Shown piece after piece: positions 4,641 to 24,878 of a stretch of DNA of 32,012 nt (the first letter of the stretch is position 1; every line of letters begins with the position of its first letter). Below the pieces are notes generated by a model. The model ran no database searches and was not told the origin of the DNA. It saw only the letters and a program-made list of their open reading frames with translations. The position numbers and the translations under genes are program-made. The stretch comes from a virus. The stretch covers positions 1 to 32,012 of IMG/VR virus record IMGVR_UViG_3300037587_000445, one strand, 5' to 3'.

Positions 4641-5574
4641 AGCCACAAGGCAAGAGCAAGACCCGACTAATCAAGCCGGGACTAGGCGAAGGGCTACCCG
4701 AGACAACAACCGCCGCCTAAACAATTCGGCGCGCGAAGTGTTGGCTATTTGGCGCAATGTCGGCGCGAAGAAAACCACCCGCAAGAAAATAATCAACCAA
4801 GAATCTGAAGCGCTGGATTTTTATGTCTATGACCTATCCGCTCAAGATAAGTCGGATTTATCTGTTGAGATATCTGATTCAGTAAATGAAAACCTAGAAA
4901 CGACCACCGCAGCGCCGCCCTTTAATTGGTATTATGAGCAATACATAGAGCAAGCGTATAGAGGCGGCACGATACAAGAAAACGCTGAAATTGCCGTTTT
5001 GCTTGCTCTAATCGCCGGTTCGATCACCATTGAAACCACTAGTATATTATCGTCATCGCGCTATCTTGATTTGTTAGAGGCTGCGGTAAACAAAAACTAC
5101 CCACTGTTTAAGGGACTATCCGAAACAACCAGCAAGCAAATATTTCAAGTGATTAACGATGGCATCGACGCCGGGTTAAGTAAGAACGCGATCAGGCGCA
5201 AGATTTTAGAGCGTTACGAGGTTGCCAAATCATCAGCCAAGCGAATAGTGGACACTGAGGTTAACCGGAAATACAACAACGCCAGGACTGACTTGATAAA
5301 GTTTTACCGGGACAATGGCGAGCCTTTAGCTGTTCAGCACATATCGGCGTTACTAGCAACGACAAGACGGCATCACGCCGCACGCCATGGACGGGCTTAC
5401 ACGCCAGAGCAGCAAGATAGATGGTGGGCCGAGGGAGTCAATCGAATAAATTGCCATTGTTCAATCAGGGCCATAGTCGTTAATCGAGACGGCACAGTCG
5501 CAAATAAAGAGGCTCAAAACAAAGTGATCGCTCGCGGTAAGGAAATATTCGAATCAATAAGTGAGATTGGTTAA
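4630..5574 (+). CDS. MuF-type phage head morphogenesis protein
   Basis: About 314 residues. The start is uncertain: in-frame ATGs occur at 4615, 4618 and 4630, all inside the portal gene, and none has a strong binding site; 4630 has a weak GATGG upstream. The C-terminal domain (about the last 110 residues) shows the SPP1 gp7/Mu gpF signature: DTEVNRKYNNAR, HISALLATTRRHHAARHG, DRWWAEGVNRINCHCSIR. Here RHHAARHGR and INCHCS hold the conserved His/Cys residues. Known role: minor capsid protein made with the portal. It lies between portal and protease, the usual place. The N-terminal 40 residues are basic. Confidence 0.88.
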   Translation: MASKATRQEQDPTNQAGTRRRATRDNNRRLNNSAREVLAIWRNVGAKKTTRKKIINQESEALDFYVYDLSAQDKSDLSVEISDSVNENLETTTAAPPFNWYYEQYIEQAYRGGTIQENAEIAVLLALIAGSITIETTSILSSSRYLDLLEAAVNKNYPLFKGLSETTSKQIFQVINDGIDAGLSKNAIRRKILERYEVAKSSAKRIVDTEVNRKYNNARTDLIKFYRDNGEPLAVQHISALLATTRRHHAARHGRAYTPEQQDRWWAEGVNRINCHCSIRAIVVNRDGTVANKEAQNKVIARGKEIFESISEIG

Positions 5575-5595
5575 AATGACCAAATTTTGGTTAGT

Positions 5596-5623
5596 TTGAA
5601 ATTAAACAAAACTAGCGTATAAT
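5596..5623 (+). promoter_or_regulatory. Promoter before the prohead protease/capsid block
   Basis: TTGAAA (5596-5601), 16-base spacer, TATAAT (5618-5623), 30 bases before the next start codon. A TAGTTT/AAACTA inverted repeat spans the -35 and spacer, and a short palindrome, ACCAAATTTTGGT, lies just upstream. This is the only structural-block promoter in the window with a good -35 box. Confidence 0.6.
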
Positions 5624-5653
5624 CATATCTAATAAATTAAGGCATAGGTAACA

Positions 5654-7012
5654 ATGAAAAGATTTCATTTTTGCACACAAAAAGTCAATCGCGATCACAT
5701 TAAGCGCGAAACCCGAAAGGGCGTTGAGCATATCATATTAACCTCTTTTACCTTGCCGCCTAATATTGTAATGAATGGCGGTTTATATCCTGCTGAAGAG
5801 GTAGACAAGTCGTTTGAGTCACTAAACCGCACACCGGTAACTGTTGAGCATCCAGAAATTGACGGAATGTTTGTTTCGGCAAGCGATCCGGAAACTGATT
5901 TTGATTTCCGTTTTGGCGCTTTCAATGAGAATGCTCGCAAAATGCCAGATGGCCGAATTGCTCTTGATAAAGTAATTAATGTTCAAAAAGCGTTAATGAC
6001 CGATAAAGGTAAGCGCTTACTTGATCGAATCGATGAGCTGGAAACAAACGACAATGCACGACCGATGCATACCAGCGTTGGCGTATTTCTTGATGTTGAA
6101 GAGGTTGAGCTTTCAACCAATGAAGCAGGTCAGGAATTTACTTGGATTGCTCGTGATATGATATTCGACCATGACGCCATCTTGCTTGATAGTGTTGGCG
6201 CATCGACTCCCGATCAAGGCACTGGAATTGGCATTAACAAAGAGCAGCTAAAGGTTAGTCATTTTGTTGTTGAATCACCCATTGAGCGAGAAGTAAAAGC
6301 CACCAATTATCTAACTAACGAATTATCGTTTGACCAAATCGAGCATGAGTTATTTAAAGAGCTTAACAAGGGCATAGAGGAGAATTTCAGTTGGATAGTA
6401 GCTGTATTCGATGACAGTTTCATCTTTCATACAAGCGAAGGTGAAATGTTCAGATCTAATTATACAGTTGATGATTTAGATAATGTAAGTATTCAAGACA
6501 CGCGGCTACCAGTGGAACGCGTTGTTGAATTCAAACCCATAAACACCACTGACACAAACGGAGATAGCGCTATGCGTGATCAAATCATTGCCGAACTTGC
6601 GAAGCTAGGGATCACGGTTAACGCCGAAATCACCGATGCTGAACTAATGGCGAAATACAATGAAGCGTTGACCGCCAATAAAGGCGATGATACGCAAGAC
6701 CCTGGTAATATTGCTGAGATTGTCGCTAACGCGGTAAAAGACGCTGTTGAACCATTAACCCAAAAGATTAACGGTTTAGAAACCAAGTTACAGGAAGATT
6801 CCGACAAAGAATTGACCGAGCTTGCTGACTATATTGTTAATTCAAAGCAACGACCAGAGTTTACAGCAGATCAAATCAAAGGGCTTGGCGTCGACACTGC
6901 CCGGTCAATTGCTGCTAACTGTGGCTTTTCTCAAGGCATTGGTTCAACAATGCAAGTCAATAACCATGAATCTGAAACGTTTGTTACAAACGTTGACGAT
7001 TTACCAGAATAG
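5654..7012 (+). CDS. Prohead protease with C-terminal scaffold domain (DUF2213-like)
   Basis: 452 residues, ATG with AGGTAAC upstream. The N-terminal half resembles DUF2213-type capsid maturation proteases: NGGLYPAEEVDKSF, then TPVTVEHPE with a candidate catalytic His, then MHTSVGVFLD and IFDHDAILLDSVGAST. The C-terminal half after about residue 300 is acidic and helical, with a likely coiled coil around residues 355-385, as expected for a built-in scaffold. Known role: scaffold for shell assembly, later self-removed by the protease. It sits between MuF and the capsid genes, and has its own promoter. Catalytic residues are inferred from the motif, not proven. Confidence 0.78.
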   Translation: MKRFHFCTQKVNRDHIKRETRKGVEHIILTSFTLPPNIVMNGGLYPAEEVDKSFESLNRTPVTVEHPEIDGMFVSASDPETDFDFRFGAFNENARKMPDGRIALDKVINVQKALMTDKGKRLLDRIDELETNDNARPMHTSVGVFLDVEEVELSTNEAGQEFTWIARDMIFDHDAILLDSVGASTPDQGTGIGINKEQLKVSHFVVESPIEREVKATNYLTNELSFDQIEHELFKELNKGIEENFSWIVAVFDDSFIFHTSEGEMFRSNYTVDDLDNVSIQDTRLPVERVVEFKPINTTDTNGDSAMRDQIIAELAKLGITVNAEITDAELMAKYNEALTANKGDDTQDPGNIAEIVANAVKDAVEPLTQKINGLETKLQEDSDKELTELADYIVNSKQRPEFTADQIKGLGVDTARSIAANCGFSQGIGSTMQVNNHESETFVTNVDDLPE

Positions 7013-7504: not shown

Positions 7505-8581
7505 ATGATTTTTAATAAAACATTAGTTGCAAATAGCATTGCAGCAAAACGACAGTTACGAGAGCGTGACGCTATTCGTTCTTGTTTCAACATTAACGAA
7601 CAACGATTTGGCGGTGAATACCGGGCGCATGGCTTAAAGGCTAATGCCGGTCGAATTCCTGATGAAGTATTCCGCGAGTTTGACAATGTGACAGTTGAGC
7701 GCATGAAGCTTGATGAGGGTGATGCTTTCCTCAACGATCTAATGCCTATGTCTCGTGCATTGCCTATCGGTAAGCTAACGTTTGAGAATCGTCGCGCAAG
7801 CGATGCGGGTAACGTCCAAACGTCTATGACCGGGCAAATCGGTGTTAAGTTCGATAATGTTGATTTCAGCATTGACGGCACGATCATCCCGGTACACGAT
7901 AACGGATTCAGCCGCAACTGGCGTGAATTCTCAGCCGGTCAATCTGAGGGCTTTGACGTCTTAATTGATGACCAGCGTGAAAACGTATCGGCACACCGTA
8001 ATCACCTCGCTGATACGTTCCTTGATGGTCACAAGGACAAGAACAGCCAGGTTATCGTAGTTGATACTCGTAAGTGGGAAGGTATGCGGAATGACGCTCG
8101 CGTTGTTCAAATCGACCTCGGTGCTGGCGGTGTTAACTTTGACTTTACCGACCAAACCAAGACCGGCGATCAAATCAAAAACGCATTCATTGAGATACGC
8201 GATACCATGCGGATCACGAACAAATGTACCTCTGATTTGACTTACTATGTGTCGGAAGAAATCGCCTCGAATTTTGAGCGTAAATTCAGCACACAGTATG
8301 ATGCTCAGACCATCGAAGCCGAACTAATGCAGTTGCGCGGTGTTGCTGGTATCAAAGCGTCTAGCAAGCTTGGCAGCGCAGCGGTTATAGCTGGTAACGA
8401 GCTAATGGCATTCCCAATGAACGGCCTAGTACGGCCATTAACCGGTATGGGTGTTTCAACTATCGCGCAGCCACGACAAGTTTATAATGCAAATTATGAC
8501 TTTATCGTTGCATCCGCTATCGGTTGGGAAGTTCGTACCGATTTCTTCAACAACTCTTGTGCAATGAGCGCTAAGGATTAA
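7505..8581 (+). CDS. Major capsid protein
   Basis: 358 residues, ATG with AAGGAG upstream. Position (after scaffold and decoration, before neck genes), length and the strand-rich, acidic sequence fit an HK97-fold major capsid protein. Visible segments are FGGEYRAHGLKANAGRIPDE near residue 40, the central DDQRENVSAHRNHLADTFLD helix (a candidate backbone helix) and the C-terminal AIGWEVRTDFFN strand, a kind of ending common in major capsid proteins. Forms the icosahedral shell. Assignment rests on gene order and architecture; the exact family is not certain. Confidence 0.8.
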   Translation: MIFNKTLVANSIAAKRQLRERDAIRSCFNINEQRFGGEYRAHGLKANAGRIPDEVFREFDNVTVERMKLDEGDAFLNDLMPMSRALPIGKLTFENRRASDAGNVQTSMTGQIGVKFDNVDFSIDGTIIPVHDNGFSRNWREFSAGQSEGFDVLIDDQRENVSAHRNHLADTFLDGHKDKNSQVIVVDTRKWEGMRNDARVVQIDLGAGGVNFDFTDQTKTGDQIKNAFIEIRDTMRITNKCTSDLTYYVSEEIASNFERKFSTQYDAQTIEAELMQLRGVAGIKASSKLGSAAVIAGNELMAFPMNGLVRPLTGMGVSTIAQPRQVYNANYDFIVASAIGWEVRTDFFNNSCAMSAKD

Positions 8582-9929: not shown

Positions 9930-10298
9930 ATGAGCAGAGTCACACCAACAGAAGTAAAAGCAATAATCGAAACGCCATTAACCGATCCGGTTATTCAGAT
10001 TTGGATTGATGGCGCTAATACGATAGTAACGGCTAACGCTGAGTGTATTGGCGGCGATGATGCTTTGTTAACCCAAGTGGAGCTATATCTATCGGCTCAT
10101 TTTGTGGGAATGCTTGACCCTGGTGTACGAGGGTTCATTACAAAAGAGAAGCTTGACGTATTCGAAACGACTTACTCTAACCCGGTCACGCTATCAAACA
10201 TAATCGATAACACCCCATACGGAACAACCGCCAATATGTTATCAGGCGGTTGCTTGGCTAATGTATCAGATAGGGCGATAACGTTATTTAGCGTTTAG
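9930..10298 (+). CDS. Putative head-tail connector (adaptor) protein
   Basis: 122 residues, ATG with AGGA upstream. It starts MSRVTPTEVKAIIETPLTD, followed by helices with LLTQVELYLSAHFVGM and DPGVRG, then KLDVFETTYSNP and TPYGTTANMLSGGCL. A short multi-helix protein of 100-130 residues with an LxxAHF helix matches gp6/DUF4054-type adaptors that bind under the portal ring. Its usual partners (closure, gp10-like, tail terminator) resume only at 14086, because island A is inserted right after it. The stop codon overlaps the last gene of that island by 4 bases, tail to tail. Confidence 0.65.
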   Translation: MSRVTPTEVKAIIETPLTDPVIQIWIDGANTIVTANAECIGGDDALLTQVELYLSAHFVGMLDPGVRGFITKEKLDVFETTYSNPVTLSNIIDNTPYGTTANMLSGGCLANVSDRAITLFSV

Positions 10299-10405
10299 GC
10301 AGTCATCTCGTGCAGCGCTGTCAAAATTATAAAGAAAATAATAATAACTGGTGATGTTATTGTTATAAAGCCCGCGCAGAAACGTTTTATTTTAGATAAT
10401 TTCAT
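10295..10405 (-). CDS. Island A gene 12: 36-residue membrane peptide
   Basis: ATG on the minus strand with GGAGG 8 bases upstream. Basic N-terminus (KLSKIKRF), then one hydrophobic segment over residues 11-31 (ITITSPVIIIFFIILTA) and a short polar tail. It is the last gene of the minus-strand island and ends 4 bases inside the oppositely oriented connector gene. It overlaps the preceding gene by 14 bases. Predicted inner-membrane peptide of unknown role; the strong binding site is the main support. Confidence 0.5.
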   Translation of the reverse strand: MKLSKIKRFCAGFITITSPVIIIFFIILTALHEMTA

Positions 10406-10598
10406 TTGTTTTGCCTCCATCAAGTACCATTGCTTGGGCCATAATTGTGGCGATCACGCTAACACCCACAGAGGTAGATTGAACATAGTTCGAAATTGAT
10501 ACTCCGCCTTGTATATTCCACCCTTCCGCGAGGTATTCGTCAACAAGTTTGCTTAAATGGTTTACGTTATTTGATGTTAATACTCGATATCTAATCAT
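10392..10598 (-). CDS. Island A gene 11: DUF1737-like protein (68 aa)
   Basis: The start MIRYRVL is chosen because its ATG overlaps the upstream stop (ATGA) with GGGG/AAGG before it; a longer frame to 10619 would overlap the neighbour needlessly. The sequence RYRVLTSNNVNHLSKLVDEY, then LAEGWNIQGGVS and AQAMVL fits the DUF1737 pattern (YRVLTG ... L..GW...G ... QAM). These small proteins are common phage and bacterial accessories with unknown function. Coupled within island A. Confidence 0.6.
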   Translation of the reverse strand: MIRYRVLTSNNVNHLSKLVDEYLAEGWNIQGGVSISNYVQSTSVGVSVIATIMAQAMVLDGGKTNEII

Positions 10599-10852
10599 CC
10601 TTTGCCCCCTATAAAGCATGGGCTGGCTGAAATGATCACAACTTCCTGATCTTCATCCGTGGGTTTATCACCTATCATCTCAAAAACCCATGCCACCGGA
10701 CTGTCACTAGGTAGCCCGGCAGCTATAATTTCGCCAACACTATTTTTATAGCAAGTCATCCCCTTCCATGTTTCGATTTTTTCAAATCCGATGTGAGTGG
10801 TATGGCCTATTTCAAAGCTAAATGTTTCGGTTTTGCGTATTGTTGCTTTCAT
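10595..10852 (-). CDS. Island A gene 10: hypothetical protein (85 aa)
   Basis: ATG with AGGAG 8 bases upstream, overlapping the preceding stop as ATGA. Sequence is polar with one likely beta sheet and FEKIETWKGMTCYKNSVGEI, then VAWVFEMIGD. No signal peptide, metal motif or membrane segment. Coupled on both sides. Function unknown. Confidence 0.55.
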   Translation of the reverse strand: MKATIRKTETFSFEIGHTTHIGFEKIETWKGMTCYKNSVGEIIAAGLPSDSPVAWVFEMIGDKPTDEDQEVVIISASPCFIGGKG

Positions 10853-12234
10853 TTGTTTTGCTCCTGCCATGCTTTAAGATATGGAATGCTAATCTTTGAT
10901 AGTTTCCACTCGTCGCCAGTAAGCTTGGGCATTTTAATTAGGAGTATTTGGTGCCAGAATTCTCCTGAAGCTGTGCAATATTCCCACAAATCCCCATTGT
11001 TACGGATATGCGAAACGCTATCATCAAACAAATCAGCATCAGGTAAATCTTTTAGCCAGTGGCGGGGGTCTACAACTTGGCACATATCAGCGCGAAAACA
11101 GCAGCTAGAGCCATTTTTATCACTTACAGCAACCATTCGTATACTTTTGCCATCGTCAAGCCCTAGGCCGTCAAATACCGCCATTACTTGAACTGGCACA
11201 TCGACAAGATGATCGGCATCACCCCAACGGTCGCGCCCGCCATCGACAATGACAGTCGAGCCAATAGTTAAATTAATCATTTTTGTTTCCTTTTGCTTGT
11301 TTAAATTATCAATAACTTTAGTGAGTTCGCGAAAAGCCTTTGCCGGATCGCCAACTTTAACTGTGCTGAAATCAATTATTTTTGTGTCCTTTTTCGTTGA
11401 TGGTTTGTGTTTTAGCGTTGCATCACTTGTTTTGATTTGAAACCACTCGTGCGTCCCAACGTCAGGATTAATACAAATAAGCAAGTCATCCATTTTTTTA
11501 TTGTCACTTACGTAAATGTTTACAACTTCAAGCGTTACCTCTTTGAAGAACCTAGTAACATTTGATTCTATGGTGAAATTTATGATCGTTCCACTTGTTG
11601 AGCATCTTATAACTTGCTCTTGTAATTTAGGGTTTATTAGATCACCTATTTTAAATTTACCTTTCATCTTATCTTCCTTTTTAATTTCATCGAAAAAATA
11701 CTCTTTAATGCTCATTAGCTTTTCGTCACTCCTAAAATAATCGCAAAGTTCCTTTCTTGATTTGCTGATTGCCTCATCTATTTGTTTCAGTATCGGGCCG
11801 CGAACTGGGCAATTTCTTATTTCTGCTTCTTCGAGATCTCGCTTTGTTTGCTTATCAAATTCTCTGTAAGCCTCTTTTGGCGTTCTTTCATCAAGACCCA
11901 ACTCGTAGCGGGTGTTTTGCCATTGTTGGCGTGTGTAATAACCGCTACTGCCTGAACCAACAGAAAAGCCGAAATCATTCCACTGGTCAGCTCTTTGGGG
12001 TTTATTCCTGCTGATGAAACCAAATCCACGCTCATTAATCCACTTAGCGCAGTTTACAGCTAGGTACTCAAGGTCGTTTTGTGGGATGAATTCGAAGTAC
12101 TCTTGAAGCTCATTTAGCCATGTGTAGCTATTATCAGTCCAGAATACGCATTGCCCATCAACACGCCCCACTGTTCTCTGATAGTTAGATGGGATGCCCC
12201 ATACCTGCCCCGCTTTCGGTGTTACGTTTTTCAT
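10849..12234 (-). CDS. Island A gene 9: 461-residue multi-part protein with internal start sites
   Basis: The largest island gene; ATG with GGAG upstream. Three parts can be seen. Residues 1-189 open with KAGQVWGIPSNYQRTVGRV and include WINERGFGFISRNKPQ and YYTRQQW; residues 190-318 start MKGKFKIGDLINPKLQEQV; residues 319-461 start MINLTIGSTVIVDGG and contain DPRHWLKDLP. Methionines 190 (nt 11667) and 319 (nt 11280) are each preceded by an AAGGAA ribosome site at normal spacing, as if three adjacent genes had been joined in frame or three products are made from one frame. Several VW/GD-type short beta modules occur. Cytoplasmic, no known catalytic motif. Function unknown. Confidence 0.6.
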   Translation of the reverse strand: MKNVTPKAGQVWGIPSNYQRTVGRVDGQCVFWTDNSYTWLNELQEYFEFIPQNDLEYLAVNCAKWINERGFGFISRNKPQRADQWNDFGFSVGSGSSGYYTRQQWQNTRYELGLDERTPKEAYREFDKQTKRDLEEAEIRNCPVRGPILKQIDEAISKSRKELCDYFRSDEKLMSIKEYFFDEIKKEDKMKGKFKIGDLINPKLQEQVIRCSTSGTIINFTIESNVTRFFKEVTLEVVNIYVSDNKKMDDLLICINPDVGTHEWFQIKTSDATLKHKPSTKKDTKIIDFSTVKVGDPAKAFRELTKVIDNLNKQKETKMINLTIGSTVIVDGGRDRWGDADHLVDVPVQVMAVFDGLGLDDGKSIRMVAVSDKNGSSCCFRADMCQVVDPRHWLKDLPDADLFDDSVSHIRNNGDLWEYCTASGEFWHQILLIKMPKLTGDEWKLSKISIPYLKAWQEQNK

Positions 12235-12235
12235 T

Positions 12236-12415
12236 TTATTTGCTCCAATTGTCAGGAAAAGTTAATTCAGCAATGAACCAACCAAGAATCATTACCGGTA
12301 TTAATGGAAACACCAACCAAAGAAGAATGAACATAAATAAATCTTCTTTATGTGTCATGCATCGTTTTAGTATTTCTATGTTTGAATAGAATAAATTAGT
12401 GGGTTTGAATTTCAT
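12236..12415 (-). CDS. Island A gene 8: small membrane protein (59 aa)
   Basis: ATG overlapping the preceding stop (ATGA). Residues 1-26 are polar/basic (NIEILKRCMTHKED), residues 27-50 form one strong hydrophobic segment (LFMFILLWLVFPLIPVMILG), and the tail is short and acidic. The next gene starts one base after its stop. Predicted single-pass inner-membrane protein of unknown function. Confidence 0.55.
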   Translation of the reverse strand: MKFKPTNLFYSNIEILKRCMTHKEDLFMFILLWLVFPLIPVMILGWFIAELTFPDNWSK

Positions 12416-12621
12416 TTCTTATCCTCCGTCAACATAGTTAGAATATCGGTAAACGTTGCGCCATTTTGACGCATAAGGCTAATGTGTGCGGCATATTGAG
12501 CTGTAAGACCCGCAGCCATAGCAACAGTAGCCGGACCAAGATTGGACTTAAGCACGATTAGCTCGATTTTGGACATTACTATTTTAGATATTATTTCGTT
12601 TTCCTTGCTCTTTTCGCTCAT
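12412..12621 (-). CDS. Island A gene 7: hypothetical protein (69 aa)
   Basis: The start MSEKSKENE is chosen for GGAGG 7 bases upstream; the frame extends further upstream but would run deep into the neighbour. Helical: SKIVMSKIELIVLK, then a small-residue segment GPATVAMAAGLTAQYAAHIS. Ends in a charged tail. It could associate with the membrane through the Ala-rich helix, but this is weak. Overlaps neighbours by 4 bases on each side. Unknown family. Confidence 0.5.
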   Translation of the reverse strand: MSEKSKENEIISKIVMSKIELIVLKSNLGPATVAMAAGLTAQYAAHISLMRQNGATFTDILTMLTEDKK

Positions 12622-12920
12622 TTCAAATCCTCCGCTGTTAGCTTGACTGTTTTTGCTAATGCTATTATGTCTGATTTGCTTAACGTAACCCCCTGGTCGC
12701 AATTTATAAAAACACCACCAATCGATCGGAAAGCGTGCGTTATGTCATTGTCGCTAAACCTATGATTAGTAATATCAAACTCTTTGCGCGGGATTGGTTT
12801 GAAATCTAGTCCGCGCTGATCCATCGCTAACCCGGTGAAATAAGGCTCATCTTTTTGTATTGAATAATAATTAGCCCAACTAGGCGCATCATCTATCTCT
12901 TGCTGTGTTAATGGCCTCAT
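12618..12920 (-). CDS. Island A gene 6: hypothetical protein (100 aa)
   Basis: ATG 12920 shares one base with the upstream stop (TGATG), with GGAG ahead. N-terminus RPLTQQEIDDAPSWANYYSI followed by PYFTGLAMDQRGLDF; the C-terminal helix region is LSKSDIIALAKTVKLTAEDL. The pattern QQEIDDAPxWA with an internal FxG resembles small phage-encoded accessory proteins. No catalytic or metal motif. Unknown role in the coupled island operon. Confidence 0.55.
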   Translation of the reverse strand: MRPLTQQEIDDAPSWANYYSIQKDEPYFTGLAMDQRGLDFKPIPRKEFDITNHRFSDNDITHAFRSIGGVFINCDQGVTLSKSDIIALAKTVKLTAEDLK

Positions 12921-13102
12921 CACTTACTCTCCAAATTAATCGTCATAGCAAAGCCATAAAAACCCATACCATCAGCCGTCATGCCGTAGGTTGGCTGTAT
13001 GCCCCACTTATGAACACCTATTGACTCGCCTATATTAAGTTCTGGTTTATCATCAATCATTGTGCAGGAAATGTCAGATATTGACTCGAATGTTATTTTC
13101 AT
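12920..13102 (-). CDS. Island A gene 5: hypothetical protein (60 aa)
   Basis: ATG with GAGGTGG upstream inside the end of the preceding membrane-protein gene. Beta-type with ISDISCTMIDDKPELNIGE and GVHKWGIQPTYGMTADG. Ends LESK; the codons for this end form the ribosome binding site of the next gene, a junction sequence seen three times in the island. Function unknown. Confidence 0.55.
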   Translation of the reverse strand: MKITFESISDISCTMIDDKPELNIGESIGVHKWGIQPTYGMTADGMGFYGFAMTINLESK

Positions 13103-13105
13103 TAA

Positions 13106-13282
13106 TTACCACCTCTCTAATAACCAAACAAAAGAAAAAACAAGGCACATGCTTAACACAACAATCCCATGTAAAATAGCAGCGACCACTATCCCACCAT
13201 CAGTAGAGAATGGTAGCACCCAAAATAATGCCGTATAAACAATGGCAATCAAAACAACCAATAAAACCCTATATATATTCAT
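13106..13282 (-). CDS. Island A gene 4: two-helix membrane protein (58 aa)
   Basis: ATG overlapping the previous stop (ATGA), GGGGG upstream. Two hydrophobic segments (about residues 5-24 and 31-55) are separated by a short PFSTDGG loop; the end is LLERW. Predicted small inner-membrane hairpin. Too short for common automatic gene cut-offs but well supported by coupling on both sides. Confidence 0.55.
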   Translation of the reverse strand: MNIYRVLLVVLIAIVYTALFWVLPFSTDGGIVVAAILHGIVVLSMCLVFSFVWLLERW

Positions 13283-13554
13283 CGCTTACCCCCACCTAAA
13301 TCTGTTACTTCATCTATTGGGGTGTATTTAAGAGCCTCAAAGCCTTCCCGGTCGAAAGTTTTAGGATCTTGATAGCAGGCAGAAGTTTTAACTCCACTTT
13401 CGTCTTGGATTCTTATCTCTTCAATATTATTTCCGTATGATTCAAACACCGCTACCCCGTCAATTTTTATCACAATATCGCTGCCGCACAACTTATCAGG
13501 GATTACGGCCTCCATGATCTGCTCATCACCTTTAATTTTATATTTGATTCTCAT
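13279..13554 (-). CDS. Island A gene 3: hypothetical protein (91 aa)
   Basis: ATG with GGAGAG 6 bases upstream, overlapping the previous stop. Beta-rich, starting MRIKYKIKGDEQIMEAVIPD; the middle reads DIVIKIDGVAVFESYG and the C-terminus GGGKR. Soluble and without recognisable motifs. Function unknown. Confidence 0.55.
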   Translation of the reverse strand: MRIKYKIKGDEQIMEAVIPDKLCGSDIVIKIDGVAVFESYGNNIEEIRIQDESGVKTSACYQDPKTFDREGFEALKYTPIDEVTDLGGGKR

Positions 13555-13835
13555 CGCTTACTCTCCAATTCGAAAATTAAAAAATCAGGGTGCGAAACAT
13601 CTTTAACTGGGTAAACCTTAAACCCGAGTAATGTCTGCCCAAAATAAAAATCGGCACGCATGTTGGTAATCTGGTAATGCTCACTATTACCAATCTCACA
13701 GAAACACTGATCAAAGTAATCGCAATTCATGTATATTACTAGCCTAATTTCGCCAACCACATCGAACGCTTGCGCCTCAAGGGTTGCTAGTCTGTGTTTA
13801 GCATGAACAGCTTCAATACATTCGTCTATTTTCAT
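13551..13835 (-). CDS. Island A gene 2: hypothetical protein (94 aa)
   Basis: ATG with GGAGAG upstream, overlapping the stop of the first island gene. N-terminal helix MKIDECIEAVHAKHRLATLE, then beta strands (EIRLVIYMNCDYFDQCFCEI). The three cysteines do not form a clear metal site. Ends LESKR, the repeated junction tail. Function unknown. Confidence 0.55.
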   Translation of the reverse strand: MKIDECIEAVHAKHRLATLEAQAFDVVGEIRLVIYMNCDYFDQCFCEIGNSEHYQITNMRADFYFGQTLLGFKVYPVKDVSHPDFLIFELESKR

Positions 13836-13993
13836 CGCTTGCTCTCCAATCCGTGAACCGCCATTATTAAAAATTCGTAATCCTTACCGCCTTTGCTATG
13901 GGTATAATACCAATCTTCTTTTCGGTCGATTAATACTAAAAACTCTTTTAGGGTATAACCCTTATTTTTAATCATCAAAGTAACTTCGTTCAT
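13832..13993 (-). CDS. Island A gene 1: 53-aa protein resembling a miniature helix-turn-helix regulator
   Basis: ATG with AGGAT upstream; leader gene of island A behind a TTGACT promoter. The sequence core KGYTLKEFLVLI, WYYTHSKGG, YEFLIM is clearly homologous to the 54-residue leader of island B (KGYSLDEFLTEI, WYRTHSKAG, YEFLVR). The order helix, [ST]LxEFL helix, turn, WYxTHSK helix, final helix resembles a shortened XRE/Aca-type helix-turn-helix domain, with WY in the expected recognition helix. I infer DNA binding, possibly of its own promoter, but no family was confirmed. It could instead be a small structural adaptor. Confidence 0.65.
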   Translation of the reverse strand: MNEVTLMIKNKGYTLKEFLVLIDRKEDWYYTHSKGGKDYEFLIMAVHGLESKR

Positions 13994-14024
13994 AAACCAT
14001 CCTATAAATCATTATGTATGCCCG

Positions 14025-14052
14025 ATTGTACAGGGTATGCGGTAAAAGTCAA
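14025..14052 (-). promoter_or_regulatory. Promoter of island A
   Basis: On the minus strand: TTGACT (14052-14047), 16-base spacer, TACAAT (14030-14025). GCATAC occurs twice, 19 bases apart, across the -10 region, and an imperfect inverted repeat ATGCCC/GGGTAT flanks the -10, so a bound regulator is plausible. The element overlaps the divergent plus-strand promoter. Confidence 0.65.
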
Positions 14053-14057
14053 TATTG

Positions 14058-14066
14058 TGTTAAAAT
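14058..14066 (+). promoter_or_regulatory. Extended -10 promoter of the neck gene block
   Basis: TGT-TAAAAT, 19 bases before the ribosome/start region at 14086. Its -35 position falls inside the island A promoter, so the two promoters probably cannot be occupied together. Confidence 0.5.
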
Positions 14067-14085
14067 TAACAAAAGAGGATTTCTA

Positions 14086-14454
14086 ATGACATACAATTAC
14101 CCAGCAAGCCGAAAGCAAGCGCAACGAATAATTTCAAAGTTTGGTGCGCCAGGCTCAGTCGTGAAGAAAGGCGAGCCAGGCGGCGGCTTTGACGTTAACG
14201 GCGATCCGGTAGCCGCTAGCCCTGATGTAACGCTTTTCGGCACTGTAACGCCGCTAGTGCGCTTTAAGACGGGCGAAATAGACGGCACGACCATTCTCAA
14301 AGGCGACTCGTGGGTGTTTTTCAATTCCGAAACCTCACCAGAAATTGATATGCAAATAACGCTGAATTTTGAAACGTTCAGAATTGTCGATTTAGAAAAG
14401 CTAACCTCAGTTGATGACATTAACGTTTTCAGACGATTAACCCTTAGAAAATAG
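14086..14454 (+). CDS. Putative head closure / neck protein (122 aa)
   Basis: ATG 14086 is chosen because AGAGGA precedes it; an upstream in-frame ATG at 14014 would overlap the divergent promoters. The sequence starts MTYNYPASRKQAQRIISKFG, followed by a Gly-rich loop, then LFGTVTPL and a beta-barrel-like C-terminus FRIVDLEKLTSVDDINVFRR. Small beta-barrel proteins at this position close the portal channel after packaging (head-closure, as SPP1 gp16/lambda FII class). First gene of the neck block after island A. Confidence 0.6.
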   Translation: MTYNYPASRKQAQRIISKFGAPGSVVKKGEPGGGFDVNGDPVAASPDVTLFGTVTPLVRFKTGEIDGTTILKGDSWVFFNSETSPEIDMQITLNFETFRIVDLEKLTSVDDINVFRRLTLRK

Positions 14455-14462
14455 GAACCATT

Positions 14463-14573
14463 ATGACCAAGAAGAAAGCAGCAAAGAAAGTGCCAGCTAA
14501 AAAATCAAGCGGCCAAGAGGTAATTGACGAAAACGGAAAGCGCTCGGTTAAAGTAATCGTTAAAAATGGCTAG
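14463..14573 (+). CDS. Lysine-rich peptide between neck genes (36 aa)
   Basis: ATG with AGGA upstream; reads TKKKAAKKVPAKKSSGQE then GKRSVKVIVKNG. The stop overlaps the start of the gp10-like gene by 8 bases. Strongly basic N-terminus suggests nucleic-acid or capsid interaction, but nothing more can be said. It is below usual length cut-offs; correct spacing and coupling support it. Confidence 0.5.
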   Translation: MTKKKAAKKVPAKKSSGQEVIDENGKRSVKVIVKNG

Positions 14574-14937
14574 CCAGTGGACTAGAATAGCTGACCGGCA
14601 AAAGCCTAAATTGCTTCGGGCGGCTAAAAACTCAGTCTTGTTTATGGGCAAGAAAATCATCAGGATTTCACCAGTCGATACGGGCCGGTTTAAAGAGAAT
14701 TGGTTAACGGCAATTGGCGAAATGAATACAGCGATTGATTTGCCTAGTGGCTTTGGTCTAACTCCAACGGTCAAGCTGTTGAGGCTGGGTGATACAATAT
14801 TCTTCACTAACTCGCTGCCATACGCCAGGCGTCTTGAGTTCGGATGGTCTGGTCAGGCACCCATGGGCATGGTCAGAATTACGGTAGCCGATTGGCAGGG
14901 CATAGTAGATCGAGAGGTTAAAAAGATAGCAGCATGA
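14566..14937 (+). CDS. HK97 gp10-like neck/tail completion protein
   Basis: 123 residues. The pattern ISPVDTGRFKENW (residues 34-46), then IFFTNSLPYARRLEFGWSGQ and APMGMVRIT is the hallmark of HK97 gp10-like proteins: SPVDTGxxRxxW, then N..PYA..lE.G.S..aP.Gm.r. Known role: tail completion or connector between neck and tail. Coupled by 8 bases upstream and 4 bases downstream. Confidence 0.85.
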   Translation: MASQWTRIADRQKPKLLRAAKNSVLFMGKKIIRISPVDTGRFKENWLTAIGEMNTAIDLPSGFGLTPTVKLLRLGDTIFFTNSLPYARRLEFGWSGQAPMGMVRITVADWQGIVDREVKKIAA

Positions 14938-15344
14938 TATCAAAATTTGATTTAGCGAAAGCTTTAAGAAACCAGGCTGTTATTGTCACTGATGCCAACA
15001 GTTTAAGGCTCGTCGGTAATGGTGAGAGCTTCAGTCCAGATGTTAACGAATCTCATGTAGAAGAAATCGTTTTATATGGCGATGACAACACGGTTGGAGT
15101 TGGTAATGACTCGAGTGATGTTCAAGTGGGCATTTATCAGTTATCCGCTCACACGCCGATAGCCCAACAAAAATGGGCCGGTTTATCAATAGTTGATATC
15201 CTCGCCGCTTCATTTACCAAAGGGCTAAAGCTTACGTTTAACAGTCAATTGGTGATCATAATGGAATCATCGATCGCTCAAATGATGACAAACGACACCC
15301 ACAATATTCACCACCTAAGCGTTCGCTTTAGTGTAATTAACTAG
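14934..15344 (+). CDS. Putative tail terminator protein (136 aa)
   Basis: ATG overlaps the previous stop. The alpha/beta content with DSSDVQVGIYQLSA near residue 65 and the position right after the gp10-like gene and before the tail tube match tail-terminator proteins (gpU/DUF4128 class), which cap the tail tube and join it to the neck. No diagnostic residue motif; assigned by gene order and size. Confidence 0.65.
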   Translation: MISKFDLAKALRNQAVIVTDANSLRLVGNGESFSPDVNESHVEEIVLYGDDNTVGVGNDSSDVQVGIYQLSAHTPIAQQKWAGLSIVDILAASFTKGLKLTFNSQLVIIMESSIAQMMTNDTHNIHHLSVRFSVIN

Positions 15345-15367
15345 AATTTAGTCATTTTGGCCAACCG

Positions 15368-15376
15368 TGTTATAAT
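15368..15376 (+). promoter_or_regulatory. Extended -10 promoter of the tail-tube genes
   Basis: TGT-TATAAT, a full match to the extended -10 consensus, 47 bases before the tail-tube start. No clear -35. A short palindrome AAATTTAAACGTTTAAATT lies between it and the ribosome site. Confidence 0.55.
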
Positions 15377-15422
15377 AATCTCGGATGATAAATTTAAACG
15401 TTTAAATTATTAAGGAATTATT

Positions 15423-15866
15423 ATGACTCAAACAAGTACGGGAACGCTGTTTGCCATTGTAGCAGCATCTCCCGCTACAATTGACGCAGCCGGGTTTGGT
15501 GCGTTAGTTTACACAAACGTTGGCGAGGTCGTCGACATTCCGGAGGTGGGCGCTGATGTCGCCGTGGTAACACACATGCCATTAGCAACCGGGATTGTTG
15601 AGAAGTTTAAAGGCTTTGAAAACTTCGGATCATTTGCGCTCGGTTTTGCTGATGATATCACTGACGCCGGCCAACTGGTTTTAGAATCTGGCGCTACAGG
15701 TGCAAACAAAAATGTACAGCATAGCGCAAGAATCACCCTTCAGGACGGAACTTTTATTTATTTTACTAATAAAATTTTCTCGTTCAAGATCAACCCTGGT
15801 TCGGCTGATTCGATTGTTGCAGCGACAACATCGATTGAGATCGAATCAAAATTAGTGAGGGTCTAA
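15423..15866 (+). CDS. Major tail (tube) protein
   Basis: 147 residues, ATG with AAGGA upstream. Beta-rich with the typical small tube-protein layout: TSTGTLFAIVAASPATIDAA, then YTNVGEVVDIPEVG, a loop GFENFGSFALGF and a final strand ATTSIEIESKLVR. It has the strongest isolated signals (own promoter, strong ribosome site) as expected for an abundant protein. It lies after the tail terminator and before the chaperones. Polymerises to the non-contractile tube. Confidence 0.8.
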   Translation: MTQTSTGTLFAIVAASPATIDAAGFGALVYTNVGEVVDIPEVGADVAVVTHMPLATGIVEKFKGFENFGSFALGFADDITDAGQLVLESGATGANKNVQHSARITLQDGTFIYFTNKIFSFKINPGSADSIVAATTSIEIESKLVRV

Positions 15867-15869
15867 ATC

Positions 15870-16217
15870 ATGGCAGTTATTACAGCAACAGATATGACCG
15901 GTTCAGGCTCACGAGCGGTCACGGTAACGACTTTGGGCGCGTCTGATACGTTCGTGTTCAATACCGACAAAACGCCGGTGCTTTATCTCAACAACGTGAC
16001 GGCAGGCGCTTTGACACCACTGATTGACGGCGATGGCGGCACAACAACCCCATGCCCTGGCGTTGGTGATGTTGACGTTTCGGCAGGCTTAACCCTTGCA
16101 TCAATCGGCATTGGCGATACGGTGGCTATTCCTCTAAACAGCATTAGCGCATACCTGAAAGGCGTCATTACTGTTACAACGGGCGATGGTATCGAGGCAA
16201 CATTGCTTGAATTTTAA
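15870..16217 (+). CDS. Putative tail-associated beta protein (115 aa)
   Basis: ATG with GAGGG upstream, 3 bases after the tube gene. Very rich in Thr/Gly/Val/Ala, with LYLNNVTAGALTPLIDGDGG and IPLNSISAYLKGVITV; a single beta-sandwich is likely. Located between tube protein and chaperones and followed by a strong terminator, so it is made in similar amounts to the tube protein; a tube decoration role is possible. Unrecognised family. Confidence 0.55.
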   Translation: MAVITATDMTGSGSRAVTVTTLGASDTFVFNTDKTPVLYLNNVTAGALTPLIDGDGGTTTPCPGVGDVDVSAGLTLASIGIGDTVAIPLNSISAYLKGVITVTTGDGIEATLLEF

Positions 16218-16233
16218 ATCAGCAAAGTGATGT

Positions 16234-16262
16234 AAAAGCCCGTCTAATTGACGGGCTTTTTT
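16234..16262 (+). terminator. Strong terminator after the tail-tube genes
   Basis: An 11-bp perfect stem, AAAAGCCCGTC with GACGGGCTTTT, and a 5-base loop, followed by T residues. Limits high tube transcription before the low-dose chaperones. Confidence 0.9.
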
Positions 16263-16277
16263 ATGTCAGCTATTTAA

Positions 16278-16286
16278 TGCTACAAT
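16278..16286 (+). promoter_or_regulatory. Extended -10 promoter of the tail chaperone genes
   Basis: TGC-TACAAT directly after the terminator, 100 bases before the chaperone start, leaving a long leader with a CATCCA/TGGATG inverted repeat (16329-16334 and 16358-16363). Confidence 0.5.
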
Positions 16287-16386
16287 AACAACTCGGCGGC
16301 GATAGTCTCGCGCAGACGACAGGCGAATCATCCACGCTTTCAAAGCCGTTCAACTTTTGGATGATACTAATGATGAAGGTAAAATT

Positions 16387-16806
16387 ATGGATCTTAATAA
16401 ACTAAACGTTACAGAATTGGCAAACAAAGGCACCGTTCTTGAATTACTAAACCCGTTCACCGATGAGTTACTAACCGACGAGGGCGAAAAGATAGCAGAC
16501 AAGGACAATGTTAAAACGTTCTTTGTGCGCTTGCTTGGCTCTGACTCTGACATTTACCGTAATACCATCAAGCGCCGGTTTGAGCGCAATCAAAACAAGA
16601 AAAGCCAAAAGCTTGATCTTGACGAGGCGCAAATTAAAGCCGCCGAATTATTGGCCAAATGCACTACCGACTGTTACATGATCGAAGATGGCAAGGTAGT
16701 TAACTGTACTCACTCAGAAATGACCCGGTTATACCTCAAATATAGCTGGTTACGCGAGCAAGCCGAAGAATTTATGGGTGATCGTTCGGTTTTAATGAGC
16801 AAGTAA
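16387..16806 (+). CDS. Tail assembly chaperone, upstream frame
   Basis: 139 residues from ATG 16387 (GAAGG upstream); an earlier TTG at 16357 has no binding site. Acidic and helical: NKGTVLELLNPFTDELLTDE, then FFVRLLGSDSDIY, then KAAELLAKCTTD. The LNPFTDE..L.D start and RLLGSDS segment are typical of gpG-class chaperones. It sits between tube and tape measure genes, with the next frame open across its end. Known role: keeps the tape measure protein assembly-competent, mainly as a 0-frame product. Confidence 0.8.
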   Translation: MDLNKLNVTELANKGTVLELLNPFTDELLTDEGEKIADKDNVKTFFVRLLGSDSDIYRNTIKRRFERNQNKKSQKLDLDEAQIKAAELLAKCTTDCYMIEDGKVVNCTHSEMTRLYLKYSWLREQAEEFMGDRSVLMSK

Positions 16807-16819
16807 GTGATGAGCTTAC
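16788..16819 (+). promoter_or_regulatory. Candidate -1 ribosomal frameshift site
   Basis: GGTTTTA (16788-16794) is read GTT TTA in the upstream frame, ten bases before its stop. Eight bases downstream, GTAAG (16803-16807) can pair with CTTAC (16815-16819). Slipping back one base at TTA/TTT continues as NEQVSDELTLYAKQ into the second frame. The heptamer is not a canonical X XXY YYZ, since the first tRNA would mispair, so the exact slip point is inferred. Confidence 0.5.
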
Positions 16820-17255
16820 GCTTTACGCTAAACAGTTGGCGTGGCTTCACGGCTCGCCAAAACGCCACAAGAACGACGAAAGCCCAAAATCAAGGGCTGA
16901 GTTATTAGATGATGATGACCCGGCTAAGTCGCTACCAGAGATTAACGGGTATTTGTCTAAGTGCTTTATGTTATCCGGTGTTTGTTTAAGTGGTGGCATG
17001 GCTATTGCCCCACTAACCTGGGTGGAAGTTGATTCGTTTGTTAATCGATCCGCTTATCCGCTTACAGGTTGGGAGTCAGAGCAAATTATACTGATGAGTC
17101 GGGCTTACGTTAATTATTCGCACAAAGCAAAAGACCTGGGTTGTCCTTCACCATTTAACTTAGCAGCAAATGATGAGGACGCGAAAGAGATAAACAGGGC
17201 CATAGTTAATGCAAGATTCACGTCGATGTTTAACGCGATGGACAATTCAAAATAA
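16794..17255 (+). CDS. Tail assembly chaperone, -1 frame extension (T part)
   Basis: The frame is open from 16782 to 17255 but has no ATG or GTG with a binding site near its start; the only candidate is TTG 16836. The residues before that TTG (SDELTLYAKQ followed by LAWLHGSPKRH) look like continuous protein. This and the exact -1 relation to the upstream frame point to a frameshift fusion of about 289 residues. The middle is MLSGVCLSGGMAIAPLTWVE and the end is helical. Known role: the fused part binds the tape measure protein (lambda gpGT). Coordinates are for the -1 frame portion. Confidence 0.65.
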   Translation, partial: NEQVSDELTLYAKQLAWLHGSPKRHKNDESPKSRAELLDDDDPAKSLPEINGYLSKCFMLSGVCLSGGMAIAPLTWVEVDSFVNRSAYPLTGWESEQIILMSRAYVNYSHKAKDLGCPSPFNLAANDEDAKEINRAIVNARFTSMFNAMDNSK

Positions 17256-17275
17256 GGGGCTACGGCTCCTTTTTA
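17255..17275 (+). terminator. Terminator after the chaperone genes
   Basis: AGGGGC/GGCTCCT-type six-pair stem with a TACG tetraloop, followed by TTTTTA. It overlaps the last bases of the oppositely oriented island B. Its first base is also the last base of the chaperone stop codon. Confidence 0.75.
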
Positions 17276-17362
17276 TTCCGACTTTAACCACATACCAAAT
17301 ACACAACCAAGAGTAAACGTGATCGTCATTACAGTAAGTAATTCGTCCATTGTAATAATCAT
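17273..17362 (-). CDS. Island B gene 4: 29-residue membrane peptide
   Basis: ATG overlaps the previous stop as ATGA, giving translational coupling. Polar start MIITMDELL, then one hydrophobic segment (TVMTITFTLGCVFGMW) and a KSE tail. It ends inside the plus-strand terminator. Very short; supported by coupling and membrane-peptide composition only. Function unknown. Confidence 0.4.
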   Translation of the reverse strand: MIITMDELLTVMTITFTLGCVFGMWLKSE

Positions 17363-17598
17363 AATTTATACCTATAAACAAACCAATTGTCGTGCATGTT
17401 TTTAATTTTCTGCTTTAATTCATGCTGATGAACATAGCGCAATGTATTCCAAAGAATCAGAACCCCAAGGCTACCAGCAATGTTTTCATGAAAAAAATTA
17501 TCAAGATTCAAATCAATTAATACTATGCCAATTATGACTAGGCAGTTACAGGTAGTAGCTATCACCAGTAATTTGAAGAATTCAGTTTTGTTTTTCAT
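17359..17598 (-). CDS. Island B gene 3: two-helix membrane protein (79 aa)
   Basis: ATG with GGGG upstream. Hydrophobic segments at about residues 9-30 (LLVIATTCNCLVIIGIVL) and 40-52 (AGSLGVLILW), then a basic, His-containing cytoplasmic-type tail (RYVHQHELKQKIKN). Predicted small inner-membrane protein. It begins 1 base after the preceding stop. Unknown family. Confidence 0.6.
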   Translation of the reverse strand: MKNKTEFFKLLVIATTCNCLVIIGIVLIDLNLDNFFHENIAGSLGVLILWNTLRYVHQHELKQKIKNMHDNWFVYRYKL

Positions 17599-17599
17599 T

Positions 17600-17920
17600 T
17601 CACGGCCCCTTGATTTTATTTAGTAAGTTTATTGCCGCAATATAATCACAATCATCTTTATGGTTCGGAAATTCATTGCCGCAATAATCACAAGAGCCAT
17701 TGCCATTCCAATTTAGTTTTTTAGTTATACTTTTCAAAGCTTCAACCAAAGCATCATGATTGTTTACGGCATGGCTGATTGATTTGTTTTGACTGCGCGT
17801 AGTATTTGCGGTGCTTGGCGGTGTCATATGGCCACCAAACTGCGCTTTGTATTTATCATCAGCAACAATTACTGCACTTTCAACGGCTGTTGGTAGCGTG
17901 AACTCATCAGACATTTTCAT
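17600..17920 (-). CDS. Island B gene 2: small zinc-finger-like phage protein (106 aa)
   Basis: ATG overlaps the stop of the island leader (ATGA); a second ATG two codons later (MSDEF) is equally possible. Low-complexity polar middle (TPPSTANTTRSQNKSIS), then VNNHDALVEALKSI, a phrase common in phage Ead/Ea22-type and related small proteins. The C-terminal part is SCDYCGNEFPNHKDDCDY (CxxC, then HxxxC), a likely zinc-binding unit, followed by AAINLLNKI. Role unknown. Confidence 0.6.
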   Translation of the reverse strand: MKMSDEFTLPTAVESAVIVADDKYKAQFGGHMTPPSTANTTRSQNKSISHAVNNHDALVEALKSITKKLNWNGNGSCDYCGNEFPNHKDDCDYIAAINLLNKIKGP

Positions 17921-18081
17921 TTTTTAATTTCCAATTCATCAATTTTTCTAACTAAAAATTCATACCGCGCAGCACCAGCTTTGCTGTGGGTGCGATACCA
18001 CCGAAGACTAAACCCGATTTCGGTTAAAAACTCATCGAGTGAATAGCCTTTTGATTCTATTTGTTTTCTTAACTCTTTCAA
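17917..18081 (-). CDS. Island B gene 1: 54-aa paralogue of the island A leader, helix-turn-helix-like
   Basis: Starts at TTG (18081-18079) with GAGG upstream; no ATG is available and the coding match to the island A leader begins here. Core KGYSLDEFLTEI, WYRTHSKAG, YEFLVR aligns with KGYTLKEFLVLI, WYYTHSKGG, YEFLIM of the other. Layout of four short helices with a WY-containing third helix resembles a minimal XRE/Aca-type DNA-binding domain. It is first in its operon behind a promoter with a perfect inverted repeat, so self-regulation is a reasonable inference, not shown. The TTG start would keep expression low. Confidence 0.65.
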   Translation of the reverse strand: MKELRKQIESKGYSLDEFLTEIGFSLRWYRTHSKAGAARYEFLVRKIDELEIKK

Positions 18082-18097
18082 TTGTAGACCTCATAAA

Positions 18098-18141
18098 TGC
18101 AAATATACACTAACAGTAAACGCATATTTGCACTAAGTCAA
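18098..18141 (-). promoter_or_regulatory. Island B promoter with operator
   Basis: Minus strand: TTGACT (18141-18136), 17-base spacer, TACTGT (18118-18113). TGCAAATAT (18098-18106) and its perfect inverse ATATTTGCA (18124-18132) flank the -10, centred 26 bp apart: one in the spacer, one at the expected transcription start. A typical repressor operator layout. Confidence 0.7.
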
Positions 18142-18180
18142 GGCTTTGTTTCAACAATACAAATCAATGCTGATTTAAGT

Positions 18181-18186
18181 TATAAT
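18181..18186 (+). promoter_or_regulatory. -10 element before the tape measure gene
   Basis: TATAAT, 29 bases before the start codon, without the TG extension and without a recognisable -35. Back to back with the island B promoter. Confidence 0.45.
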
Positions 18187-24141: not shown

Positions 24142-24765
24142 CTAGCTCGACCTGATTTCCGAGGCTATTCTAATTAAATAGCTTTTCAACGGCTCGGATT
24201 GTTGATTAGCTATTGACTCAACATGGTTTGACTTGAACGCTTTATAAACTTCACTAGCAGCCTCTGGCGTTTTAAAATATCCTAAAGTTTTTTGTTTTCC
24301 ATTAACAGAGCATAATGCGGAAAATCTATTGCCCCCAGAGTGAAGGTTAACACCTATAGGGTACTTTCCCCTTCTTCCTTTACTGTCTACTGTGATGTTG
24401 TTTATTTGACTTGTAACAAAAATACAAGTTCCTGGAGAGTAGATTTTATTACCTGTATATTTTAGGTCCTTATCGATCTGTTTATTGCGCCAATTTTGTT
24501 TGATCATCCATGCTCTAAACACCGAAAAAGTAAGCCACTCATTACAAACTGAACAACCGATATACGCTGGTTTTTTATTTTGATACTTTTCTGAATAACA
24601 ACGTTGAATCATGGTTTGCCACCTTGTATAAAATGGGCAATAAAACCTTTCTTTATTAATTATTGGATTTACTTTGTAATCAGCATCGTTGATACCAACG
24701 CCATGGACTGACCTTCTTCTTGATATAGAGTTTTGATTGGCTTTAATTATTGGGAATTCTTTCAT
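24142..24765 (-). CDS. Free-standing HNH/AP2-type homing endonuclease-like protein
   Basis: 207 residues; start MKEF is chosen for GAGGT upstream. Contains a CSVCNEW pair (residues 71-77), LKYTGNKIYSPGTCIFVTSQ (101-120) and an AP2/ERF-like DNA-binding domain at about 134-182 (KYPIGVNLHSGGNRFSA, LGYFKTPEAASEVYKAFK). This combination is known from phage HNH family homing endonucleases with AP2 domains. It faces the tail genes on the minus strand and starts right at the tail-tip stop, so it looks like an inserted mobile gene. A complete classic HNH triad was not located with certainty, so activity is unproven. Confidence 0.75.
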   Translation of the reverse strand: MKEFPIIKANQNSISRRRSVHGVGINDADYKVNPIINKERFYCPFYTRWQTMIQRCYSEKYQNKKPAYIGCSVCNEWLTFSVFRAWMIKQNWRNKQIDKDLKYTGNKIYSPGTCIFVTSQINNITVDSKGRRGKYPIGVNLHSGGNRFSALCSVNGKQKTLGYFKTPEAASEVYKAFKSNHVESIANQQSEPLKSYLIRIASEIRSS

Positions 24766-24878
24766 AATAACCTCACTAAGGTTTATCACTACGAAATGTT
24801 TTACGTCAAACCAAGGTAGTGAATCTTGGCTTTCAGCCGCTAAGCCTATGACGCTTGTTTATTATAACACGGTCGATG

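Follow-up and report, generated by a model that had tools for sequence, protein, structure and literature searches.

Aca proteins (Aca1-10) are small helix-turn-helix (HTH) regulators encoded in short phage accessory operons, where the operator is located inside the core promoter, and their autorepression guards other genes of the phage against runaway transcription (PMC9410906). The aca genes are usually found behind the acr genes, and the proteins bind inverted repeats. Here, we describe two small proteins, referred to as mini-regulators, which are encoded in a 32-kb uncultured virus record (IMG/VR IMGVR_UViG_3300037587_000445; the whole stretch of 32,012 nucleotides is called the window below). 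Each of them is probably a small HTH autoregulator of its own accessory island, i.e., of a run of small genes lodged backwards beside a structural promoter.

The mini-regulator module resembles that of Aca in that a small (here predicted) HTH protein is found in a short accessory operon with a putative operator in the core promoter. In contrast to aca, which usually follows acr, the mini-regulator gene is the first to third gene of its island; in addition, the islands run opposite to the virion genes, and their cargo is not known Acr. The putative sites are mainly tandem direct repeats rather than the inverted repeats bound by Aca proteins; an additional inverted repeat is found at island 2 of the window and at a few other islands, but direct repeats dominate. 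Structures of Aca1 appeared among the Foldseek matches only at E values of 3.7 or worse, and sequence searches of the PDB with the family gave no Aca match. The best reading is that the module is Aca-like, yet it is not filed as Aca by the features tested, because its sites depart from the inverted repeats of that class.

Repressors of the HTH_3 or lambda Cro-CI type share the predicted fold class with the mini-regulators and account for most of the nearest structures (none significant), but the mini-regulators comprise only ~54 residues in four helices and match no Pfam HTH profile. The nin region of lambdoid phages has conserved boundary sequences and contains small genes with repeated ribosome-binding sites (RBS) and stop/start overlaps at the junctions, a feature also seen for the small genes of island 1. 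The nin genes, however, run in the direction of their operon and have no dedicated HTH regulator at the head, whereas the mini-regulator islands are antisense and headed by one. With the morons of temperate phages, the islands share an own promoter within a late operon and, at island 2 (the sole island checked), a terminator-like hairpin. Moron islands were one suggestion of an earlier note on this DNA; in the lysogen sense, this role is disfavoured: no integrase was found in 24 records, partly fragmentary, where a temperate lifestyle was judged by the absence of this enzyme alone, and the family is almost absent from bacterial genomes. P2-like phages and P4 satellites have antiviral hotspots, where variable accessory genes are found in otherwise conserved genomes (PMC9122126). 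To that extent the hotspots are similar to the mini-regulator islands, but those phages are temperate, in contrast to the 24 records without an integrase. We know of no common head regulator or operator for these hotspots. The open-licence papers that were searched gave no earlier description of structural operons with antisense islands headed by an HTH gene.

The mini-regulators and their family

The gene for mini-regulator 1 is found at 13832-13993 (minus strand, ATG start, 53 residues) and that for mini-regulator 2 at 17917-18081 (minus strand, TTG start, 54 residues). Searched against the window, mini-regulator 1 returned mini-regulator 2 at an E value of 3.7e-10, with 48% identity over 50 residues, and by this alignment the two are homologous. 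Each gene is the first of a minus-strand run within a plus-strand operon for head, neck and tail proteins, which encodes the portal protein (phrog_146), a head morphogenesis protein (phrog_758), Hc1 (phrog_161), Neck1 (phrog_169), the tail terminator (phrog_179) and the major tail protein (phrog_158). Island 1 comprises ~12 genes (10295-13993, minus strand) between a head-tail gene and Hc1, while island 2 comprises ~4 genes (17247-18081, minus strand) directly before the tape measure gene. The homology and the leading position of both open reading frames, as claimed in the earlier note, are borne out by these data.

AlphaFold2 models of both proteins contain the same four helices, with an HTH at residues 15-21 and 26-32 (predicted local distance difference test, pLDDT, 92.6 for protein 1 and 84.7 for protein 2), and the mini-regulators are predicted with confidence to be four-helix HTH proteins. 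Structure prediction, which had been proposed as a check of the DNA-binding role, does not speak against that role for either protein. The Foldseek matches in the PDB were mostly lambda-repressor-like DNA-binding domains, including Aca1, none of them significant (E value 0.8 or worse), and the nearest structure in BFVD was A0A2I7RDX4 (template-modelling score, TM, 0.75; E value 0.1). The family consensus is ~MNKLTRKIRNKGYTLLEFCEVIGYSLRWYREH..NELESK, where K11, G12, Y13, E17 and F18 are invariant, and the members are under purifying selection, with a median ratio of nonsynonymous to synonymous substitution rates (dN/dS) of 0.37.

Relatives are encoded in more than 60 other IMG/VR contigs. Among the GTDB genomes there is one carrier, a Colwellia metagenome-assembled genome (MAG) with three separate phage-like contigs, which is the sole carrier among 395 genomes of its order; the presence of three such contigs in one MAG points to Colwellia as a host. 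Each of these contigs (C68, C101 and C179 of MAG G001, i.e., L104, L105 and L098) encodes one family regulator, with two half-site types among them. This single MAG excepted, the sources of the family are uncultured virus contigs, many of which are fragments and some near-duplicates. In one of them (3300023279_000251; L008/L061), an intact regulator gene is directly followed by a tandem copy that is broken by an internal TGA (7677-7832 and 7916-8056 for the pair).

No convincing relative was found among annotated records (50,697 phage and 72,556 plasmid). The one weak candidate, in Vibrio phage 1.112.O (E value 3, unannotated), located downstream of terminase and co-directional with its neighbours, NinX and a membrane protein gene, was not accepted. 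Searches of Pfam (including the HTH_3 and Cro-CI profiles), PHROGs and the PDB with the family sequences gave nothing significant; the best PHROGs value, 0.0032 for one member, is below significance, and phrog_8 (transcriptional regulator) matched weakly in 6 of 24 members, at 0.0061 at best. The mini-regulators are a previously unlisted family, covered by no Pfam or PHROGs family.

Placement of the islands

In all family contigs except three, the regulator gene is gene 1-3 of a run of small genes that is antisense to both flanking long genes, where gene calls beyond the window were made with a simple open reading frame script. Whether homologues always head such islands had been posed as a question in the earlier note, and the answer is that they do so, or nearly so, outside these three contigs. 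Because the same placement is found in more than 60 other phage contigs, the arrangement in the window is beyond chance. Among antisense runs of at least two genes between long majority-strand genes, 39 harbor a regulator and none lacks one, while eight single-gene antisense runs are without it; the contigs were found via the family, i.e., the count shows that there are no unmarked islands in these contigs and is silent on other phages.

The flanking genes of the islands belong to 32 protein families, which occur in more than 20 combinations and include the portal protein, large terminase, head morphogenesis protein, major head protein, scaffold, Hc1 and head-tail adaptor, as well as neck and tail proteins. 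At the site between portal and terminase, three different regulator/operator types are found in different phages. HTH genes are common in phages and many of the contigs originate from similar phages, as would be expected if the islands were ordinary accessory clusters with the HTH gene as chance cargo and a repeated placement that reflects the shared ancestry of one insertion. We consider this explanation highly improbable given the diversity of flanking families and contexts, the three types found at the portal-terminase site, and the blind operator scans described below, which predict the regulator.

Related phages differ in which island sites are filled, at no fewer than three sites. In the window and in L003, both site 1, before Hc1, and site 2, before the tape measure gene, hold an island. 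L056 has an island at site 1 and an empty site 2, and L103 an empty site 1 and an island at site 2. Site 3, between head morphogenesis and phrog_760, is occupied in L103 and L010 and vacant in the window. At site 2, the island has a terminator-like hairpin on one side and the structural promoter on the other, and a similar hairpin and promoter are also found at the empty site in L056. Presence and absence at three or more sites among related phages would also fit mobile cassettes, where the small protein is excisionase-like and the direct repeats are recombination sites; Xis-type proteins have tandem direct sites, and repeats are present at gene junctions of the islands. However, the 24 records are without an integrase match, the putative operators lie on promoter elements rather than at both island ends, there is one operator match per contig, and no target-site duplication was seen by eye at the junctions compared. 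With no integrase in the 24 records, the integrative or mobile-cassette reading was rejected, and we regard it as very unlikely.

Promoters and putative operators

A promoter with a TTGACT -35 box had been assigned to each island in the earlier note, and both were found on the minus strand. That of island 1 is at 14025-14052 (TTGACT 14047-14052, 16-bp spacer, TACAAT 14025-14030; 10/12 consensus matches) and that of island 2 at 18113-18141 (TTGACT 18136-18141, 17-bp spacer, TACTGT 18113-18118), the latter placed by eye and not listed by the consensus scan. Such matches by themselves occur at chance frequency in this region of the window, and the calls are supported because the promoters are conserved in relatives.

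The island promoters of the family contain tandem direct-repeat half-sites, whose start positions relative to the -35 box are +8, +30 and +39, with an additional one at +17 in some cases (24 promoters); the main pair is 22 bp apart, i.e., two helical turns. The motif RTGCAAA is found in at least two copies in 17 of 24 promoters of proteins with the helix SLRWYR, RTGNCAW in 6 of 10 LRTYR promoters, RTGTCA in 3 of 4 SLSxYR promoters and AACTACG in 5 of 17 RKxxWW promoters, where the strict count is low because the half-sites of this group vary. Off-group half-sites are near zero, except for RTGCAAA at 3 of 10 LRTYR promoters. By these counts, the putative half-site changes with the recognition helix. 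At island 2, the putative operator (18098-18136, minus strand) consists of the direct repeats TTAGTGCAAATA (18125-18136) and TTAGTGTA (18106-18113), 23 bp apart, around which a perfect 9-bp inverted repeat is found, TGCAAATAT/ATATTTGCA (18098-18106/18124-18132, minus strand). At island 1, a low-confidence candidate operator (14016-14040, minus strand) consists of GCATAC at 14035-14040 and 14016-14021.

The link between operator and regulator was also assessed independently of the protein, by scanning an operator-only DNA pattern over 2.9 million viral contigs. The first pattern matched 19 contigs, once in each, and 16 of these have the regulator gene on the same strand, 26-514 bp downstream. 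For two further contigs, the whole record shows a complete regulator at 563 bp in one case and a regulator cut by the contig end in the other, while in the 19th only 117 bp of sequence are left; all 18 with enough sequence thus encode the regulator, and 7 of the 19 contigs were new relative to the protein search. A second, spaced pattern for the RKxxWW group, which captures this group better than the strict motif count, matched 15 contigs, 14 of which, all known earlier from protein searches, encode the regulator 10-14 bp downstream; the exception, a 126-kb contig, fits a rough estimate of a few chance matches. The pairing is not merely that of two adjacent pieces of one gene, because in many islands it persists across an intervening gene, which belongs to several unrelated families.

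The earlier note also suggested that the two window proteins may regulate each other. The data lend this idea no support: the recognition helices differ (SLRWYRTHSK vs RKEDWYYTHSK), and even when two mismatches were allowed, TTAGTGCAAATA, the island 2 half-site, was not found at the island 1 promoter. With no common half-sites, cross-regulation was rejected.

Back-to-back with each island promoter there is a promoter-like element on the structural strand, i.e., an extended -10 TGTTAAAAT at 14058-14066 (plus strand) ahead of the Hc1 gene and a -10 AGTTATAAT at 18178-18186 (plus strand) ahead of the tape measure gene. Of 52 islands, 44 have a structural-strand extended -10 close to the island promoter by the criterion of TGnTATAAT with at least 7 of 8 matches (a few of these matches are elsewhere and may be other motifs), as compared to 19.5% of 415 control upstream regions and 18% of shuffles. 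The distance to the island -35 box is 35-36 bp where both could be placed, and the polymerase sites of the island and structural promoters therefore overlap. A promoter-like site without an island is found before the major tail protein gene (15349-15376, plus strand; TAGTCA, 16 bp, TATAAT, with TG before the -10).

The overlap, which makes the two polymerase sites mutually exclusive at a fixed distance of ~36 bp in most islands, is also what would be expected if the regulator mainly activates or switches the neighbouring structural promoter, with structural genes on and the island off, as for lambda CI at PRM/PR. This reading is possible, also in the form of direct activation at the structural promoter, but we hold it to be the less probable one. 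Promoter-like sequence on the structural strand is present also at the empty sites 2 and 3 (in L056 and at window 5574-5654, respectively), where there is neither island nor regulator, and the structural promoter need therefore not depend on the regulator; moreover, extended -10 promoters often work without an activator.

Proposed mechanism

According to the autoregulation model, the island would be an accessory operon that runs against the two virion genes around it and adjoins a structural promoter. Host RNA polymerase would transcribe it from the TTG-type promoter early in infection. The regulator would then bind the tandem half-sites, the first starting 2 bp past the -35 box and the next at the -10 box, at a distance of two helical turns, and shut the island promoter; antisense transcription would no longer collide with the late operon, and the back-to-back structural promoter would stay available. 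The reading that binding closes the island promoter and should release the structural one follows from the overlap of the two promoters. Homology, predicted fold, placement, operator-regulator linkage, the change of half-site with helix and promoter geometry were computed; from these we infer the actual binding, repression over activation, the early timing and the benefit to late transcription. The proposal in the earlier note of a new HTH family that marks accessory islands is supported by the predicted fold, the island placement and the matching operator at the promoter.

Several points weigh against autoregulation. In L006, L030 and L055, the regulator is on the structural strand. The GCATAC pair at island 1 is a guess and is missing from the nearest relative, L008 (74% identical). 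The linkage of operator and regulator could in part reflect inheritance of the module as a block. In addition, nearly all sources are the uncultured virus contigs, with gene calls from the simple script outside the window.

Island cargo

The 167 island genes comprise a few shared families and 88 groups of one or two. The shared families are membrane-like proteins with the motif RE(V/I)xCWYFKINK, a small cysteine-rich protein, YopX, and proteins of 328-461 residues that start with 'NVxPxAGQVW'. Small membrane-like proteins with RE(V/I)xCWYFKINK have 14 members, in the islands L013, L017, L018, L022, L028, L035, L040, L049 and L073.

An anti-defence function had been put forward in the earlier note together with the marker role; in its full form, the cargo would inhibit host immunity and the regulator would be functionally a new Aca. 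The acr-aca-like architecture and a D12-class DNA methyltransferase in the island of L010, a plausible anti-restriction gene and the sole PADLOC match among the cargo tested, lend this part of the claim weak support. On the other hand, nine other cargo proteins gave no PADLOC match, and the recognised cargo consists of YopX and of unknown or membrane-like proteins. An anti-defence role of cargo is possible, while islands dedicated to anti-defence appear rather unlikely.

The L010 island also encodes a protein that, by eye, resembles the HNH endonuclease of the window, the gene for which (24142-24789, minus strand) is a single antisense insert between structural genes without a regulator. Unannotated single antisense genes between structural genes, again without a regulator, are found in L003 (6819-7550) and L023 (2453-3112).

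The cargo of island 1 (10295-13835, minus strand) is encoded, from the regulator onward, at 13551-13835, 13279-13554, 13106-13282 (membrane-like), 12920-13102, 12618-12923 (phrog_34522), 12412-12621, 12236-12415 (membrane-like), 10849-12234 (461 residues), 10595-10870, 10392-10619 and 10295-10423, all on the minus strand, with repeated 4-bp ATGA overlaps. That of island 2 (17247-17920, minus strand) is encoded at 17600-17920, 17359-17598 (membrane-like) and 17247-17381, likewise on the minus strand, with the terminator-like hairpin (17254-17271) at the far, convergent end.

At the gene junctions of island 1 a repeat, TTGGAGAGNAAGCGATGA, which covers the RBS and the stop/start overlap, is found at 13832-13849, 13551-13568 and 12917-12934 (minus strand), where the chance expectation is 0.04. 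Tail-junction repeats are found in 7 of 53 islands, as compared to 1 for a mid-gene control, and such repeats might help small genes to shuffle by recombination. In L046 (3456-3737), the C-terminal end of a cargo protein resembles the C-terminal part of the regulator (NKQNELIKSGIESL), and this end is absent from the relative in L015; the tail is possibly a trace of recombination within the regulator gene.

Significance

A more general, tentative view is that the regulator and the back-to-back promoter pair constitute a portable switch, which may allow many phages to carry early accessory genes backwards within the late operon. The regulator would shift the polymerase from the island to the structural promoter, and the operator/helix pairs would diversify, thereby keeping several islands in one genome independent. 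The placement opens to testing the question of how phages spare late transcription the harm that accessory genes on the antisense strand could do. With their matching half-sites, the natural recognition helices form a ready-made series of specificities within a very small class of phage regulators. Together, regulator and operator offer a sequence handle for accessory islands in uncultured phages, as aca does for anti-CRISPRs.

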